The notes under the pieces: model-generated | What the model was told of the DNA's origin: nothing | Database searches by the model: none | Seen by the model: the letters and a program-made list of their open reading frames with translations, nothing else | Part shown: in pieces, positions 41,785 through 51,524 of the stretch | Layout of the letters: every line of letters begins with the position of its first letter | Position numbering within the stretch: position 1 is the first letter of the stretch | Translations under genes and position numbers: made by a program | Assembly (NCBI GenBank): GCA_021789995.1 | Contig: JAJYIQ010000001.1 | Coordinates: forward strand, 434,001 to 498,000 | DNA length: 64,000 nt | Reading direction: 5' to 3' | From: a bacterium | GTDB taxonomy: Bacteria; Patescibacteriota; Microgenomatia; UBA1406; GWC2-37-13

Positions 41785-42540
41785 ATGAGAAGATCACGAA
41801 TCACCATCACCTTAAAACAGCAGCTGGTAACTGACCTCGATCAGCTGGTTGACGGCGAAAAGATTCGCAATCGTTCCCACGCCATTGAATACATCGTCGA
41901 CCGGTTCTTCCAGCCAACAATCAAAAAGGCGGTCATTATGGCCGGCGGCCGGGGGACGGAAATATCGCCATCCGTCATCGAATCACAGATTGCCAACTTA
42001 AAAAAAAGCCATATTGATGAGATTGTCATTTGTACCGGCGTATCCGGCGATAAAATCAGGCGGTATTTTGGTACCGGAGAAAAATTCGGCGTCAGGATAA
42101 ACTATTCGGGTGAAAAAAAACCGTTGCAAACAGGCGGGGCTCTCCTTAAAACCAAAAATTTTCTGGATAACAAACCATTTCTGGTAATCTACGGCGATGT
42201 TATAACCAATTTGCCGTTTATCGACGTCGTTAATTTTCACGAACAGCAAAAGGCGCTGGCAACCATTGCCTTGACGACCGTGGAAAAACCGGAGGAATTC
42301 GGTCAATTGAAATTACATGGCATTACCTTGGTAAACTTTTACCAGAAAAATAAAACCCAGCCGGTAAAAAGCAATCTGATAAATTGCGGCATTTATGTTT
42401 TCCAGCCGGAAATATTCGACTATTTTCCCCACAGGGAAAAGCCGTTTCTTCTGGAAGATATCATCGAACTGCTCATTCAAAAAAAGAAAGTGAATGGATT
42501 TGTTTTTGAAGAAAAATGGATCGATGTCGGCAAAACTTAA
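41785..42540 (+). CDS. Fusion: ribbon-helix-helix DNA-binding domain plus NDP-sugar nucleotidyltransferase
   Basis: 251 residues from ATG 41785. A frame extension to 41749 overlaps the promoter and is rejected. Residues 1 to about 45 (RRSRITITLKQQLVTDLDQLV then NRSHAIEYIVDRFF) are a CopG-type ribbon-helix-helix domain. From about 49 onward follows an NTP_transferase domain: KKAVIMAGGRGTEISP, LQTGGALLKTKNFL, VIYGDVITNLPF with the metal-binding Asp, NCGIYVFQPEI and DIIELLIQKKKVNGF. It probably makes an NDP-sugar and may control transcription. Its promoter interlocks with that of the divergent UMP kinase fusion, so it may regulate both genes. Confidence 0.82.
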   Translation: MRRSRITITLKQQLVTDLDQLVDGEKIRNRSHAIEYIVDRFFQPTIKKAVIMAGGRGTEISPSVIESQIANLKKSHIDEIVICTGVSGDKIRRYFGTGEKFGVRINYSGEKKPLQTGGALLKTKNFLDNKPFLVIYGDVITNLPFIDVVNFHEQQKALATIALTTVEKPEEFGQLKLHGITLVNFYQKNKTQPVKSNLINCGIYVFQPEIFDYFPHREKPFLLEDIIELLIQKKKVNGFVFEEKWIDVGKT

Positions 42541-42875
42541 AATAATCCCGTATTGTCCAAACCGAAAATCTTCGCTATAAGCCGGACGATAAAAAAGGAT
42601 AAAATCAGCAGGATAAAACCGATCAGTCCGGCCGTAATTTTTGCCTGAGCGCTTTTTACTTTTTCGGCATTACCTTGCGACATCATAAAATCATAGCCGC
42701 CCCAGATGAGGACAAAAAGAAGAATGACCCCGGCAATGGGAATAAGCACAATTAATACACGGCTAATAATAGCGCCAATGGTGATATTGCCATTAGCATC
42801 TGCCAAGCTTGGATCCAACAGACCGTTAAATGACTGACCACCGATTGTCAGCGATTGAGCAATATATTTAGGCAT
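42537..42875 (-). CDS. VirB2/TrbC-like pilin-type small membrane protein
   Basis: 112 residues. After a polar N-terminus of about 38 residues come two hydrophobic helices separated by a short loop: ISRVLIVLIPIAGVILLFVLIWGGYDFM, the loop SQGNAEKVKSAQAKI, then TAGLIGFILLILSFFIVRLIAKIFG. This is the T4SS pilin pattern (VirB2/TrbC). The SQGN-EKVK loop matches the SQGS-EKIK loop in the protein at 50601. It is the last gene of the clpC operon and overlaps the M50-like gene by 28 nt. Confidence 0.8.
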   Translation of the reverse strand: MPKYIAQSLTIGGQSFNGLLDPSLADANGNITIGAIISRVLIVLIPIAGVILLFVLIWGGYDFMMSQGNAEKVKSAQAKITAGLIGFILLILSFFIVRLIAKIFGLDNTGLF

Positions 42876-43480
42876 TTTAAAAAAATAATTAAAATAGTAT
42901 GGATCGCTAACGTTATTAAAAGGTAAATATTAATCCTGCCGGAAATTGACATCAACCGTCCAATTAATCCACTATTAACTATTATATCTAATTTAATATT
43001 GAAAATGTAAAAAATACCGGCAATGATCACTGCCAGCGGAATAAGCACCAATAAATCCTGCAAATCCTGCCTGGAAGAAAACATAGTGGAGGATACGATA
43101 AAAATCATGTAACCGGTCAGGAGATTTAACGGAAAAATCGACAGCCATCCCAATATCAGCACTCCTATTAATAAAGGCGCCAATCCCACCAATAGACCGC
43201 GGATAGCATCCCTTTTTTCGTATTCAACTCTTCCCAACTGAATATAATTATCAGCAAACCGGGGAAAAATACTCATGCTTCTCACTTTTAAAAGCAGGAT
43301 AATTGCCGTCAGAAAATGGGCGGCCTCATGAATCAAGGTACCGGGTAAAAATATTATTGAAATTAGGCTAAAAGTAACTTTTTCGTTATGGACCAATTTC
43401 CCGATGAAATCGAATAGGGAATTGATAGTAATGCGGGAAATAAAATAAATGGCTGCAAGCAGGATTAAAAAAACGATCAT
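42848..43480 (-). CDS. M50-like membrane metalloprotease
   Basis: 210 residues, mostly hydrophobic with about five helices. PGTLIHEAAHFLTAI (about 47-61) contains HEAAH, the zinc-binding HExxH of M50/site-2-type intramembrane proteases. Later helices hold no clear second zinc ligand (the usual xDG motif is not obvious), so activity is uncertain. Overlaps the Thr/Pro-rich protein by 4 nt upstream and the pilin-like gene by 28 nt downstream. It may process a membrane or exported protein of this locus. Confidence 0.68.
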   Translation of the reverse strand: MIVFLILLAAIYFISRITINSLFDFIGKLVHNEKVTFSLISIIFLPGTLIHEAAHFLTAIILLLKVRSMSIFPRFADNYIQLGRVEYEKRDAIRGLLVGLAPLLIGVLILGWLSIFPLNLLTGYMIFIVSSTMFSSRQDLQDLLVLIPLAVIIAGIFYIFNIKLDIIVNSGLIGRLMSISGRINIYLLITLAIHTILIIFLKCLNILLNR

Positions 43481-43818: not shown

Positions 43819-46800
43819 TTAACTGGCAGGTGTGGGAGATTGTGTTGGGACTGCCTTCGGTTCATCCTCAATAAATTCCTGGACTTTGGCCGATGCACAT
43901 TTTGTACAAATCGGCGTCGCGTTATCAACAACTTCACTGGAGAAACGATTGCCGCAAACTTCGCACAGGAAATTTTTTGTCTTTTGTTTTTTCACTTTTG
44001 CGGCATCGACTAATTCCACTTTTTCAACATTAAAAACAAAATTCTCGCCATCAAAATCGACCATTATCTGGTCTCCGGTCTTAACCTTTCCTTCAATAAT
44101 CAATGTGGAAATCGGGTTTTCAATCAGTTTTTGGATTGCCCGCCGCAGAGGCCGGGCGCCGTAAATCGGATCAAACCCCGACCGGACGATTTCTTTAACG
44201 GTGGCATCGGTGTATATAAAACCCATATCCTGGTCTTCCAACTGTTTTCCTACACCGGCCATTTGCAGTTTGACGATCGCCATCATATGAATAAACCGGA
44301 GTGGCTCGAAGACAATCACTTCGTCGAAACGGTTAATAAGCTCCGGACGGAAAAACTTGCGTAGCTCGCGCATAACTTTGTCTTTTACCAGACCGTACTT
44401 TTTCGTATCTATTTCGCTCTCGACTTTGTTTTTTTCGGCGATTTCCTTTTCCAGCGGAAAATCCTGGCCAAAATATTCCTTCAGGAAACTGACGCTCCAG
44501 GTTTTTTCGTTACCGTTTCTTGACCAAACACTATCACCAACAATTATCAATTCTTTGCCGGCAGGAGAAAAAGTATGGATATCCCAGTGGGTTGTCGGCA
44601 AACCGACCTGTTTTTCCACCGGCACATTGTCTGTTTTCGCCTCCGGTTTAGATTCTGCCACATTTTCTGTCTTAACGGCCGGAGCCACTTTCGTGGCAAC
44701 GGCGTCGCCAAAATAATCCTTCAAATAACCGGTTTCCCAATCTTTGACTTCACCTTTCCGGCGCCAGAACCGGTCTTTATAAGAAATAATTTCCACCTCA
44801 TCCGGCGAATAAGTATGGGTTTTTAATTTGGCTGTTGGTAATTGCTCATCCGGTGCATCAGGAATAGCATTGATGACGACATTGTCTTTAAATAGATTAA
44901 TAAGTGTCATCTGTTGCCAGGTCTTGGCGGTCGTTGATGAACGATAGAAAACATCACTGTCTTTGGTGATTATTTCCACCCCTTTGGCTGACATCGCCTG
45001 AGTATCAAATCCGTGAACGGGAAATTCATTTTTTTCTCCCTTTTCCGCCGAAGCTTTAGCGGAGGCAGATTCAAGCTGTTGTCCTGCAAAATAATCCAAC
45101 AACATTCCCTCTTTCCAATTTCCTGATTCGCTTCCTTTCCCATCTTCCGTTTTTCCACTTCTTTCAAAATATTTATTACCAATTGTCAGTATTTCCCTCC
45201 CCCGCGGGGAAAAAGCATAGCTCGATATCATCGGCGGTTCTTCCACTTCGGTTTTGCCGCTTTTTAATAATTCCTCCTGAATGATCGTCGTACCGATATT
45301 GGATGTACAGATGACGACGGTATTTTTAAAAGAAATAACATGACCTTTATTATCCGTCAGCCTGCCGTCATCGAGAATTTGCAACAAAATATTGAAGATA
45401 TCCGGATGAGCTTTTTCCACCTCGTCAAAAAGGACGACTGAATACGGTTTGCGCCGGACGGCTTCGGTCAGTTTTCCACCTTCTTCGTAACCGACATAGC
45501 CGGGAGGAGCACCTAACAATTTAGCCACTTCGTGTTTCTCCATGTATTCGGTCATGTCGAAGCGGATCATTGAGTCGACGGTTCCGAAAAGAATATCGGC
45601 CAGTGTTTTGGCCAATTCGGTTTTACCGACACCGGTTGGCCCGAGGAAAACAAAGCTGCCGATCGGCCGCTCGGTTGATTTTAGACCGGCCCGGCCGCGG
45701 CGGACGGCATCGGCCACCGATTTGACCGCCACTTCCTGATCAATCAGCCGTTTATGCATGATTTCTTCCAAGTGGGCCAGGCGTTCGATTTCCGAACTGG
45801 TGATTTTATTAACCGGAATCCCCGTCCAGCGGGATACAATATCTTTAATAATCTCGACAGTGACGCTCGTTGTCGTCTGGCTTTTTTTCAAATTGTATTG
45901 GTCCTGTTTTTCTTTAAGGGAATGGGAAATATCATCGATTTTTGATCGCCAGATACGCGCCTTGACCCGGTCGCCGCTTTTTTCGGCTTCGGATAGTTCC
46001 TGATTCAATTCGGCCACCCGCGATTCCAATGATTTGATTTCTTCCGGCAGGGAAATAAGAGGCAGGCGGACGGCCGAAGCAGCTTCATCAATCAAATCGA
46101 CCGCTTTATCCGGTAAAAACCGGTCGCCGACATACCGTTTGGACAAACGGACGGCTGCTTCGATCGCCTCTTCGGGAATCTTTACCCGGTGGAAGGCTTC
46201 ATATTTATCTTTAATGGCTTGCAGCATTTTGATCGCCTGCTCTTCCGTCGGCTCCGGCACTAAAACCGGCTGGAAACGGCGCTCAAGCGCCGGATCTTTT
46301 TCGATATATTTCCGATATTCTGTCAAAGTGGTCGCGCCGATTAATTGCAGTTCACCTCGGGCCAAAGCTGGTTTGAGAAAATTAGAAGCATCAAGCGACC
46401 CTTCGCCCGAGCTTCCTGCCCCGACAATATTGTGAATTTCATCGATAAATAAGATAATTTGTCCTTGACTGGCTTTAATTTGCTCGATAAGATCCTTCAT
46501 CCGTTCTTCAAATTCTCCCCGGTGGGAAGCGCCGGCAATAATATTCATGAGATCCAGCTGCAGAATCCTTTTGTTAAGAAGCGATTCGGGTACGCCTTTG
46601 GAGGCGATTTTCTGGGCGAGGCCTTCGACGATCGCCGTCTTTCCGACCCCCGCTTCACCGACTAAAGCGGGATTATTTTTGGTGCGTCGCGACAGGATAT
46701 GAATCGTTCTTTCGATTACCTCCGACCGTTCGACTACCGGATCAAGAAGTCCTTGGGCGGCTTTGGCCGTTAGATCGATAGTAAATTCCTCCAAAACATT

Positions 46801-47667
46801 TTTCTTTTGCTCGGCTTCTTTTGCTTCTTCTTCCAGTCCCTCTTTTTTACCGGTAATTTTTTTATTTAAATCCTCTTTTTTCAATCCAAGTTTGGCCAAT
46901 GTCCTGGCCCCGGCGCCTTCGCCTTCATTGTATAAAGCTAACAATAAATGTTCGGGTGAGATAAATTCGAAACCCATTTTCCGGGCAATCACCAGGGAAT
47001 CACCAAGAATTCTTTTTATCCGCGGGGAAAGGGGGGTACTCGGCGTGGTCGCCGGACCGTTGGTTTTGGGTGAGGTTAAATAAACTTTAGCCAACTCTTC
47101 TTCGATTGTTTGCGGCTGGATTTTCAGCTCAGCCAGGAAATTGTATATCTCCGAATCAGACAATAGTCCGTGCAACAGGTGCTCGCTGTCGACAAATTGG
47201 CTTTTCAGTTCCTTGGCTTTGGTCTGGGCCGACATAAAAACGCGGTTGGACCGTTGGGTCAGGTGGGTCATCAGGTCCAGCTCTTCCTGCTTTTGCTGCT
47301 CTGGGGTTTGTGGCGGTTGCGGTTTCGTAGTAGGGGCGGATCCCGTTGTCCCCCCGTTTGTCGTTGTTTGCCCGATAGGTGTTTGGGGTTTTAAACCATT
47401 TGTTGGTGTTGGCGGATTAACCGGAACCGGATTGTTATTTTTGCCATTTGCTATGTCGTTTTGATATTTGATATTTGATACTTGATTTTGGCTGACTGGC
47501 GGTTTCCCAATTCCGTTGTATGCCACTCCTCCTCCGGGCGGTGAACCGATACCGTTATACGTCTCATTGGTCAATACCGGATGATCTCCAGGCACAACCG
47601 GTGGCGATGACGCAGTTGCACTTGTATTAGTGTTATCGTTTTTAATAAAATCAAAGAAACCGGCCAT
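43819..47667 (-). CDS. clpC: ClpC-type AAA+ unfoldase with large repeat insertion and C-terminal zinc ribbon
   Basis: 1,282 residues against about 810-850 for normal ClpC. Residues 1-130 are a Pro/Gly/Asn-rich disordered extension, and the Clp N domain is at about 133-270. AAA-1 has Walker A GEAGVGKT (337-344) and Walker B ILFIDE (405-410). A middle domain lies around 540-600. AAA-2 has GPTGVGKT (676-683), VVLFDE (744-749), sensor 1 TSN and RPELINRF (1107-1114). Between sensor 1 and RPELINRF about 285 residues (805-1090) are inserted: four repeats with a conserved W and terminal YF or LF. A Cys4 zinc ribbon (CEVC 1235-1238, CTKC 1254-1257) ends the chain. It probably unfolds substrates for ClpP. 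Confidence 0.93.
44400..45255 (-). repeat. Four protein repeats inserted in ClpC AAA-2
   Basis: Encodes ClpC residues about 805-1090. The cores are 815-860 ([16 protein letters not shown] to LLDYF), 886-926 ([12 protein letters not shown] to LINLF), 949-986 ([15 protein letters not shown] to LKDYF) and 1028-1066 ([15 protein letters not shown] to LKEYF). The common pattern is S-P/A-x2-x-E-I/L, a strand pair, Arg, W and L-x2-Y-F. Linkers are low complexity. Confidence 0.75.
45041..45070. repeat. Repeat-derived [10 protein letters not shown] segment inside clpC
   Basis: The DNA CCGCCGAAGCTTTAGCGGAG is palindrome-like and encodes the [10 protein letters not shown] stretch (about residues 868-877) in the linker between ClpC repeats 1 and 2. 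It looks like a short interspersed repeat captured in frame. Confidence 0.45.
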
Positions 47668-48463: not shown

Positions 48464-48901
48464 ATGTTAAACAAAACCAACCTAATCTATCTAATCCTTT
48501 TAGGAATTCTTGTCATTCTTATTATCGCTGTCGTCGCCTTTCCGGCCAAAGAGCAAAACGCAACTCAAACCTTCCAAGACTTGCCGACACCCACCACTGT
48601 CCAGGTACTACCTTCTCCCACCTCAAACACTCCAATCCCAATAATTTCTCCGACCAATACCGGCGGCAATGAAGACGTTCCCCAACCTACATTGGATTAT
48701 TCTCTTCAAAAAGAAACTCTTCGCCGGAAAACATCGCTCAAAACTGTCGCTTTCACAATCTCTTTCGATTATTCCAACGACCGCTTTATCGTCACTCCAA
48801 ACTCACCCAATTCCCTCACTTCCCTGGATTCCCCGGTTTTTCAATCCTGGTTGAAGCAAAATTACCCCTTACTTCCCATGAGTCAGTTTGTGTTACAATG
48901 A
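48464..48901 (+). CDS. Anchored protein of unknown function
   Basis: 145 residues. One N-terminal membrane helix (LIYLILLGILVILIIAVVAF, about 6-25), a Thr/Pro-rich linker (about 30-70) and a small C-terminal domain (TVAFTISFDYSNDRFIVTPN, PVFQSWLKQNYPLLPMSQFVLQ). I do not recognise it. It starts 1 nt after the C39 gene and ends 4 nt before the VirB6-like gene, so the three are an operon. Confidence 0.6.
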   Translation: MLNKTNLIYLILLGILVILIIAVVAFPAKEQNATQTFQDLPTPTTVQVLPSPTSNTPIPIISPTNTGGNEDVPQPTLDYSLQKETLRRKTSLKTVAFTISFDYSNDRFIVTPNSPNSLTSLDSPVFQSWLKQNYPLLPMSQFVLQ

Positions 48902-48905
48902 ATTT

Positions 48906-50582
48906 ATGGTTTTTTTTTATTGGCTGCAGTATGGTTTCGGAATTTTCAAAAAAGTTCTTCTTGTCACCATTGTCTTTCTGGCCGTCATTTTCCTTATGGC
49001 TCATTTTATCGGCAAAGACCGTCCCCAAGCAACCCAGTCCACGATTGATCCGATACAACAAAACCGACAGAAAATTTATAAGATTATTAATGATCCACAG
49101 TTAAATAAAACACCCCAAGGAAAAATATCGATCGCCCTTTACCGGTTAACTGCCTGCTCGATGCTCGGCGAAGCCTGCACTAATAATCCGGCGGACGGCA
49201 ATAAAAATTTCAATCACAGTGTATTCGGATTCATGGCCAACCTGATCGCCTTGCCCTACGAAAATCCGCCGGCTTCCGGCGTCTACTGGGCATATAACGG
49301 GCTGCAAAATGCCGGTTTCATTCCCAAAACTTATGCCGCCGAGGGAATCGGTTTTGGTGCCATCGGCGCTTTTTCCAAAATCTGGGTCGCTTTCCGCGAC
49401 GTCGCCTACACCGTCCTCGTACTGGTTATCATTGCCATTGGCTTCATGATCATGTTCCGGATGAAACTCAATCCTCAGACAGTCATTTCCGTGGAAAATG
49501 CGCTGCCGCGAATCGTCATCGCCCTAATCATGATCACTTTCTCTTTTGCTATCGTCGGTTTTTTGATCGATTTAATGTATATGTCGATCGCCCTGCTGGT
49601 ATCGATCCTTGGCCCCGCCGGCGGCTATAATGTGGCGCAATACCAGCAAAAATTCATCCAAGGCGGCATCACCGACCTGATGGGCTGGTTTTCCGGTTCA
49701 CTGGGATTTAAAGGATTATTTTTTGATGTTCCCAACTCCCTGCTTAATCTGATTCCTCAAGTTGGAATGGCATTAAGATCCGCTATTGCCCTAATTGGTA
49801 TTTTTTGGTTGTATCCTTTTTTTGATAGAAATGTCGGCAATAAAGTGACAACTCTAATGGGCTCGTTATTTCCGCCGGACGCGGGAGTAAACGCGGGAGT
49901 CAAATTTACTTTTAACATCGGTAAAATCGTCACCAATCTGTTAGCGGTCTTTGCAGCCGCTCCTTTTCAGTTATTTTTAACCGGTGTAGTATCGGTTACC
50001 GTAATTGCGCCTTTTGTAGTTGGTATATTACTCTTTATTGGCCTGATGTTTGCCGTCATGCGTGTAACATTCTTGATATTCAGCGCTTACAGCAAAGTAA
50101 TCCTTAACGTCATTATTGCCCCCCTTTATCTGCTTCTGGAAGCGATTCCCGGCCAGAATGCCTTTTCTTCATGGTTCAAAGGGCTGATTGCTGAACTGAT
50201 TGTCTTTCCGACAATCGTTGGCATTATTTTAATTGGCGAAATAATAATTAAGGACATCTCCACCAGCAATATTATTCAATTTCCTTTTCAGGCCGGCATT
50301 GATCCCCGCAGTTTCGGCATCATTATCGGTTTGGTCATTCTTTACATGACCCCGGATTTAGTGAAAACCGTTAAGCAAATGTTGGTGCCCAAGCCCGGAC
50401 CGCTTGACCAAGCCGGTGTGGGTGTCCTCTTTGGAGGTGTAAAAGCTGGTGTTGATACCGGTGTCGGTGAATTCTCCAAGTGGGCCAGTACGGCTTATTA
50501 TGCCGGTCCATTAATGAAAACATTAGGTCGATTTGGGATAAAAACAGGTGGTAACGCTCCACCCAGTAATACAGAAGGTTAG
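48906..50582 (+). CDS. VirB6/TrbL-like polytopic membrane protein
   Basis: 558 residues from ATG 48906. The TTG six codons upstream overlaps the previous gene and is rejected. One N-terminal helix, a soluble segment (about 38-150), then eight or so hydrophobic helices, then a Gly-rich polar tail. The segments VAYTVLVLVIIAIGFMIMFRMKLNPQTVISVENALPRIVIALIMITFSFAIV and YSKVILNVIIAPLYLLLEAIPG are typical of VirB6/TrbL family proteins, the inner-membrane channel of type IV secretion. No VirB4 or VirD4 ATPase is in the window. Confidence 0.7.
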   Translation: MVFFYWLQYGFGIFKKVLLVTIVFLAVIFLMAHFIGKDRPQATQSTIDPIQQNRQKIYKIINDPQLNKTPQGKISIALYRLTACSMLGEACTNNPADGNKNFNHSVFGFMANLIALPYENPPASGVYWAYNGLQNAGFIPKTYAAEGIGFGAIGAFSKIWVAFRDVAYTVLVLVIIAIGFMIMFRMKLNPQTVISVENALPRIVIALIMITFSFAIVGFLIDLMYMSIALLVSILGPAGGYNVAQYQQKFIQGGITDLMGWFSGSLGFKGLFFDVPNSLLNLIPQVGMALRSAIALIGIFWLYPFFDRNVGNKVTTLMGSLFPPDAGVNAGVKFTFNIGKIVTNLLAVFAAAPFQLFLTGVVSVTVIAPFVVGILLFIGLMFAVMRVTFLIFSAYSKVILNVIIAPLYLLLEAIPGQNAFSSWFKGLIAELIVFPTIVGIILIGEIIIKDISTSNIIQFPFQAGIDPRSFGIIIGLVILYMTPDLVKTVKQMLVPKPGPLDQAGVGVLFGGVKAGVDTGVGEFSKWASTAYYAGPLMKTLGRFGIKTGGNAPPSNTEG

Positions 50583-50600: not shown

Positions 50601-51524
50601 TTAAAGAAAAGGAATTCTTAAAATATTTACACCAATAAGTTTTAAAATAAAAATGGAAAAAACAATTAACATTAAACCCATGATACAGGAAGTCAGCATT
50701 TCCTGGGATTTTTTGATTTTTTCCGGACTGCCCTGCGACGTCTGCATCATAAAGGCGGAATAAATAATGCAAAGAATCGCCACCAAGCCGCCGAAACCGA
50801 TACCCATCGACAATAGGAAGTTACCGACAAAACTTTGCAGATTCAGCGGTATGCAGCCTATTCCCGTCCACATCCCGTCGCCGGAAGCGCAGGCCAGGCA
50901 GTCTTTTAATTCGCTCGTATTGGAAAGGTAATTGTAACACAGCTGGGCAATCGATTTATTCATATTAGCCGAACTGCTCGCGCATTTACAGTTCGGGTCG
51001 GTGGCGCTCGGTTGCGGCTCGCCGTTGACACAAACAGTATTCGGATTATTTTTTTGAAAATTTTTTATGGCATCCAACCGTTGTGTAGCAGCCGCGGATA
51101 AACTGTTGTATGCGTTTATGATATCACCGGTCAAAGGCAATTTTGACAAAACATCGGTCACTGAACCGCTGGGAATCGCCGGCAAGGTGTTTATTTGCGG
51201 TAAAGCCAAACTGCAACACTTTTCCGTGCCATCAGTGGCGCCACCGACACCGCAGTCTAAACCAGGAATCGATTGATTGCTGATTGTCCCTAAAAAATTT
51301 TGTGGTTGTGCCGGTGCCGCAGTGCTGGCCGCCTGACACTTCTCCTTGGTATCATAATCACAGGTAAACTCTGTTGGTTCATCGGTCCCAAGGCACTGGT
51401 TTGGAAAATAACATTTTTTCAATTGGCCGGATAATTTCGGCGTTGGCTGCGGTGTCTGGGCAAAGACAGGAAACGTGATTGTTAATAAAATGAATAGAAT
51501 GGCGGCCAAGAAAAATTTTTTCAT
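50601..51524 (-). CDS. Secreted cysteine-rich protein with VirB2-like pilin end
   Basis: 307 residues. Signal peptide (about 1-22). A cysteine-rich secreted region (about 35-230) with 16 or so Cys, including CYFPNQC, CDYDTKEKC and DCLACASGDGMW. Then two hydrophobic helices (FVGNFLLSMGIGFGGLVAILCIIYSAFMM and MLTSCIMGLMLIVFSIFILKLIG) joined by the loop TSQGSPEKIKKSQE, the same loop as in the pilin-like protein at 42537. It is probably a minor pilin or adhesin of the T4SS-like apparatus. It is coupled to the giant protein gene by a 4-nt overlap. Confidence 0.72.
   Translation of the reverse strand: MKKFFLAAILFILLTITFPVFAQTPQPTPKLSGQLKKCYFPNQCLGTDEPTEFTCDYDTKEKCQAASTAAPAQPQNFLGTISNQSIPGLDCGVGGATDGTEKCCSLALPQINTLPAIPSGSVTDVLSKLPLTGDIINAYNSLSAAATQRLDAIKNFQKNNPNTVCVNGEPQPSATDPNCKCASSSANMNKSIAQLCYNYLSNTSELKDCLACASGDGMWTGIGCIPLNLQSFVGNFLLSMGIGFGGLVAILCIIYSAFMMQTSQGSPEKIKKSQEMLTSCIMGLMLIVFSIFILKLIGVNILRIPFL

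Follow-up and report, generated by a model that had tools for sequence, protein, structure and literature searches.

What does an unfoldase do once its protease is lost? A proteolytic Hsp100 is usually recognised by its ClpP-docking loop, and here we describe a clpC-like gene from a ClpP-less lineage of bacteria in which a predicted folded interaction domain occupies exactly that docking position, a domain that appears to have been lost again several times among the relatives of the gene, so that the locus amounts to a natural experiment on this question. The gene lies in a window of 64,000 nucleotides (the whole stretch of DNA that was analysed), which belongs to a genome of 898 kb in 4 contigs that is ~93% complete. 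A preliminary description had noticed four diverged tandem repeats in the second AAA+ module (D2) of the encoded protein and had proposed that they bind a substrate or a partner, which is plausible. Our analysis suggests a ClpC motor remodelled to serve something other than ClpP. By prediction, a four-bladed hemopexin-type fold, otherwise described chiefly from exported proteins of eukaryotes, lies within a bacterial AAA+ motor, and the close relatives with and without the propeller, together with one that has the propeller and no motor, make the question directly testable.

The clpC gene and its insert

The product of the gene (Table 1) consists of a low-complexity N-terminal extension, Clp_N, the first AAA+ module (D1), a short M-domain, D2 with the insert, D2-small and a Cys-rich tail, and it has Pfam matches to Clp_N, AAA, AAA_lid_9, AAA_2 and ClpB_D2-small. 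Clp_N, two AAA+ modules with Walker A and B motifs, and D2-small, by which a ClpC is recognised, are thus all present, and the phmmer alignment with Bacillus subtilis ClpC, which spans residues 136-796 and 1087-1212, crosses the M region without a large gap, as a short M-domain requires. An identity as ClpB was rejected, because the M-domain is short and the NCBIfam ClpB model scores 949 bits against a cut-off of 1232. The insert-bearing members conserve Walker A, Walker B, the RPELINR region and GAR, the D2 pore loop retains GYVGY, and the D1 pore loop has His where B. subtilis ClpC has Tyr; from these letters we infer an active motor, perhaps with an altered grip in D1. The CxxC..CxxC tail is present in 35 of the 49 members with the insert and in 11 of the 22 without it.

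Table 1. Positions of the features discussed (window coordinates unless a locus is named; AF2, AlphaFold2)
Feature	Residues	Coordinates	Strand	Basis
clpC-like gene		43819..47667	-	1282-aa ORF
D1 pore loop, [11 protein letters not shown] or similar clade-wide	379-389	46501-46533	-	
Insert	797-1086	44410..45279	-	phmmer alignment break vs B. subtilis ClpC
Propeller blade 1	816-859	45091..45222	-	AF2 secondary structure; blade HMM
Propeller blade 2	889-926	44890..45003	-	AF2; blade HMM
R-x-STT-x-K hairpin of blade 2	909-915	44923..44943	-	conservation, 52 sequences
Blade 2-3 linker, NA[IL][10 protein letters not shown]	933-945	44833..44871	-	conservation
Propeller blade 3	950-985	44713..44820	-	AF2; blade HMM
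Propeller blade 4	1030-1066	44470..44580	-	AF2; blade HMM
Outgoing stalk helix	1072-1105	44353..44454	-	AF2 model, D2 + insert, H443-476
Zinc-ribbon-like C-terminal tail, CxxC-x16-CxxC	1235-1258	43894..43965	-	sequence
PGTxxHExxH membrane protein, metalloprotease-like		42848..43480	-	conserved beside clpC
Further HExxH gene loci (among others)		L130 11565-12278; L123 4097-4819		
Membrane/T4SS-like cluster genes around clpC		42537-42875; 50601-51524; 48888-50582	-; -; +	
Divergent ClpP-like ORFs		L071 4011-4574; L072 3923-4519; L073 2440-2988; L074 4095-4646	-; +; -; -	
ORF at the clpC position in genome G235		L066 9667-10725	+	
Candidate free-standing relative		L151 1171-1941	-	

From the sensor-1 TSN (which starts at residue 788) to RPELINRF (which starts at 1107) the gap measures 319 residues, as against 33-40 in related short-loop ClpC, and the insert accounts for ~290 extra residues. 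The four diverged tandem repeats reported there (residues 811-864, 882-929, 947-989 and 1026-1069) are borne out by two kinds of evidence. All six pairs of copies outscore nearly all of 2000 shuffles each, the fraction of shuffles reaching the score being 0 to 0.002 (the third and fourth copies, for example, score 98 where the shuffle maximum is 45), and a single-blade HMM made from 52 homologues finds exactly four matches in the window ClpC, with E values of 1e-15 to 1e-20, and exactly four in the complete homologues listed, the model itself including these sequences. The copies end in DYF, NLF, DYF and EYF, so that three of the four close with YF, as had been observed. Between them run variable, low-complexity linkers.

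Predicted fold of the insert

An AlphaFold2 model of the insert, based on the 52-sequence alignment, has a pLDDT of 89.3 and a pTM of 0.85 and contains four units, each with four strands and a short helix. Its best Foldseek matches are hemopexin-fold proteins (TMt 0.63-0.71), and VIA-align 2 gives Z scores of 13.8-17.8 for 25 hemopexin-fold entries, as against 8.4 for the next unrelated fold, with an rmsd of 2.5-3.2 over 173-209 residues in the best rows at ~10% identity. The prediction for the insert is therefore a single closed beta-propeller with four blades and the hemopexin fold, the closed ring and its superposition on hemopexin structures being properties of the model. The unit had earlier been given as about 40 residues with a predicted strand pair; the repeats hold, and the strand pair gives way to a four-stranded blade with a short helix, ~45-50 residues long including an [FL]P lead-in. 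D2 itself stays normal when it is modelled together with the insert (Z 33.6 over 293 aligned residues, 53% identity to ClpC). In that model the stalk helix, which we count as part of the insert feature, runs unbroken from the propeller into the D2 helix that leads to RPELINRF.

The family to which the fold points is not recovered at the level of sequence. Membership in the hemopexin family PF00045 was rejected, the insert having no match at E <= 10, and no significant sequence relative of the propeller was found in the PDB; since sequence methods give no link to that family, a common fold is supported rather than common descent. No known Clp, Pfam or NCBIfam domain matches the insert either, so the repeats do not correspond to a domain already described in ClpC or ClpA. 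The strongest conservation outside the blade cores lies in two places: the R-x-STT-x-K hairpin, a highly conserved loop that joins strands 3 and 4 of blade 2, and the linker between blades 2 and 3, where N, A, PD, P and QLPT are each conserved at 85% or more, and which is the longest conserved non-strand stretch in the insert.

The insertion site and ClpP

In the phmmer alignment B. subtilis ClpC ends at residue 665 and resumes at 678, so that the insert takes the position of residues 666-677, which carry VGF, and the LGF of a ClpP-positive relative aligns at the same place. In Staphylococcus aureus ClpC the P-loop (660-680, with AGF at 671-673) docks into ClpP, and its mutation abolishes the interaction (PMC12521514). 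Taken together, the break in the alignment, the aligned VGF and LGF and the S. aureus P-loop lead us to conclude that the insert replaces the ClpP-docking loop; there is no [ILVM]GF in the sequence of the window ClpC between TSN and RPE, and the propeller stands where a ClpC would carry its LGF/IGF-type loop. The preliminary description had placed the repeats in the ATPase module that faces ClpP: the position is correct, but it is the docking loop itself that is replaced, in a genome where no ClpP was found.

A profile search with PF00574 found no ClpP in the window genome (~93% complete, as given above) and was positive in 12 of 14 control genomes; a ClpC defined as working with ClpP would in this respect not include the window protein, which instead combines a short M-domain with the lack of an LGF motif, as ClpIb does. 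Across the class, canonical ClpP (E < 1e-70) was found in 10 of 281 genomes, all of them in two insert-less families, and in none of the 37 sampled genomes that bear the insert. The five ClpC that we read from genomes with canonical ClpP have LGF, LGF, IGF, LGF and MGF and no insert; in the insert-less ClpC that we read from genomes lacking ClpP, the loop has no GF motif. The window genome encodes Lon and FtsH. Divergent ClpP-like proteins of ~185-200 residues, with a plausible catalytic Ser and His, were also seen, in genomes with and without ClpC.

Distribution and evolution

By protein search, 37 of the 281 genomes sampled from the class carry the insert; they belong to several families, and in nearly all of the 37 it sits within a long open ClpC frame. 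A scan of the collection gave substantial matches at ~60 named loci, of which nearly all belong to Candidatus Roizmanbacteria and Gottesmanbacteria, tiny and mostly uncultured bacteria. Conservation of the insert in dozens of independent genomes excludes an assembly artefact. The suspicion that it is lineage-specific is supported by this distribution, and across 380 genomes of the phylum there is, outside the family of the window, one weak free-standing match. This protein (L151), which has 257 residues, a membrane anchor at its N-terminus and FP-linker features, comes from a different family of the phylum. One blade matches at E 1e-5, and hhalign gives 88% over 65 columns; it is possibly a free-standing relative of the propeller, as a weak candidate. 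The window genome has no second copy of the propeller besides that in ClpC. A viral origin was rejected, none of 25 pattern matches in viral contigs being a relative. In one further genome (G058; L030 / L125) clpC is split into two frames of 701 and 635 residues, an apparent assembly frameshift.

In a tree of the ATPase core all insert-bearing proteins fall within one clade (support 0.999), and Fitch parsimony needs 8 changes for the insert, compared with a mean of 19 and a minimum of 14 after shuffling; two frameshifted or truncated tips (L125.2 and L079.1) were left out of the counts. The result fits one gain followed by about seven losses, the number of losses being approximate because several internal nodes are weakly supported. 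Core and insert distances are correlated (r 0.75, over pairs that are not independent), which is consistent with vertical inheritance, and the insert diverges twice as fast as the core, with mean distances of 0.56 and 0.28. Insert-less members, for example those of genus g8, have a linker of 31-62 residues without GF. As the insert has been lost about seven times while the motor was kept, it is dispensable. In one genome (G235) a 352-residue ORF at the clpC position, followed by the same downstream genes, has a destroyed D2 ATPase, with a Walker A of GPTGPAKT and a Walker B without DE, and D1 and the C-terminus are gone, yet all four blades are retained, while the conserved blade-2 loop and blade 2-3 linker are lost from its sequence. 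It may be a decaying gene or a reused domain.

Function and alternatives

The reading that we favour, and to which the sequence and the predicted models give about an even chance, is that of a ClpC-derived double-ring AAA+ unfoldase that would act independently of ClpP and whose crown of propellers at the exit face would dock a new partner. Six propellers per hexamer would ring the exit of the threading channel, each attached through a single flexible linker and a single long helical stalk. The motor would thread and unfold proteins as ClpC and ClpB do, and the crown, a platform for protein interactions, would join it on its exit side to a new partner that takes the place of ClpP.

Several known systems share parts of this arrangement. 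The ClpC of Firmicutes and Actinomycetota (B. subtilis, S. aureus, Mycobacterium tuberculosis ClpC1) have the same Clp_N, D1, short M-domain and D2, with ~50% identity and a near-identical fold in D2, whereas the window ClpC has a propeller instead of the [I/L/V]GF docking motif, no ClpP in its genome, a His in the D1 pore loop for the usual aromatic residue, a long N-terminal extension and a Cys-rich tail. LGF/IGF-type docking loops have been used to distinguish ClpC from ClpB, and ClpIb of Actinomycetota, a short M-domain Hsp100 without LGF, has been proposed to be an independent unfoldase working without ClpP (PMC10149685); it belongs to a different phylum, however, and has ~5 residues at the loop, where the window ClpC has a folded domain of ~250. 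ClpB, Hsp104 and Plasmodium HSP101 are double-ring unfoldases that do not depend on ClpP, as proposed for the window ClpC, but have a long M-domain and no propeller. In HSP101, an Hsp100, it is the C-terminal side that docks to a membrane pore (PMC7355975), through C-terminal domains rather than a propeller in the D2 loop. Hemopexin-fold propellers (MMP hemopexin domains, plant seed albumins, vitronectin) likewise have four blades, each of four strands and a short helix, but that family has been described from exported proteins of eukaryotes (PMC9218822), whereas the propeller considered here lacks a PF00045 match and would lie inside a cytosolic AAA+ motor. In the literature we found nothing relevant on four-bladed propellers in AAA+ proteins, or on ClpC and ClpP in these lineages.

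The main rival to a docking platform is a chaperone vestibule, in which the propellers would directly catch or shield the emerging polypeptide of a stand-alone disaggregase or refoldase that has no stable partner. The exit-side position of the insert, the absence of ClpP and the precedent of the LGF-less ClpIb, itself proposed to be an independent unfoldase (PMC10149685), all agree with it; however, insert-less relatives that also lack ClpP do without a propeller, and the two long motifs conserved beyond the blade cores point to an interface that is specific rather than general, so that we consider a vestibule unlikely. Similarly unlikely is a regulatory or structural role, in which the propellers would hold the D2 ring together or control its state of assembly, through contacts between neighbouring subunits or through resting states, and take no part in handing over substrate: hemopexin-family propellers do mediate protein-protein contacts (PMC9218822), and higher-order assemblies control ClpC activity (PMC12583610, PMC5699869), but the known control of ClpC runs through its N- and M-domains, and the window ClpC retains both.

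The insert might also be a near-neutral decoration, accepted by a loop that the loss of ClpP had set free and persisting without strong function. Its seven or so losses, its rapid divergence relative to the core and its variable low-complexity linkers would be expected on this account, but two major lineages have kept all four blades as well as several individual residues, and the blades of G235 outlasted the decay of its ATPase, which makes mere decoration improbable. Finally, the window-type ClpC could still serve a ClpP-type protease by a contact that does not depend on LGF, as the divergent ClpP-like ORFs in three insert-bearing genomes would allow; these ORFs are missing, however, from the other 34, the window genome included, and they occur also in a sampled genome that has no ClpC match (G028), and we hold such a contact to be highly improbable.

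Gene neighbourhood and candidate partners

The leading candidates for the partner in the docking reading are an HExxH membrane protein and the cluster of envelope and T4SS-like genes in which clpC lies. That the ClpC ring is held by its propellers to this protein, or to a T4SS-like envelope complex, as a new two-gene proteolytic or envelope machine, is a long shot; if it were true, ClpC would pull proteins to a membrane protease or channel, and a Clp equivalent of FtsH or PTEX would have arisen once ClpP was lost. The HExxH gene is a direct neighbour of clpC in both groups, co-oriented in Roizmanbacteria and convergent in Gottesmanbacteria, and its product has no Pfam match. It also lies beside insert-less clpC, and is missing beside several f2 members; a role as the exclusive partner of the propeller is therefore unsupported, and the lead that the gene gives concerns the motor rather than the propeller.

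Across Roizmanbacteria clpC sits in a cluster of membrane genes, T4SS-pilin-like ones among them, whose order is conserved. On its upstream side a C39-like peptidase gene and T4SS-like genes run divergently from it; downstream follow a small membrane protein, the HExxH membrane protein, a T4SS-pilin-like protein (PF18895, just under the cut-off), and a nucleotide-kinase-like and a recF-like gene, both named from reading their sequences.
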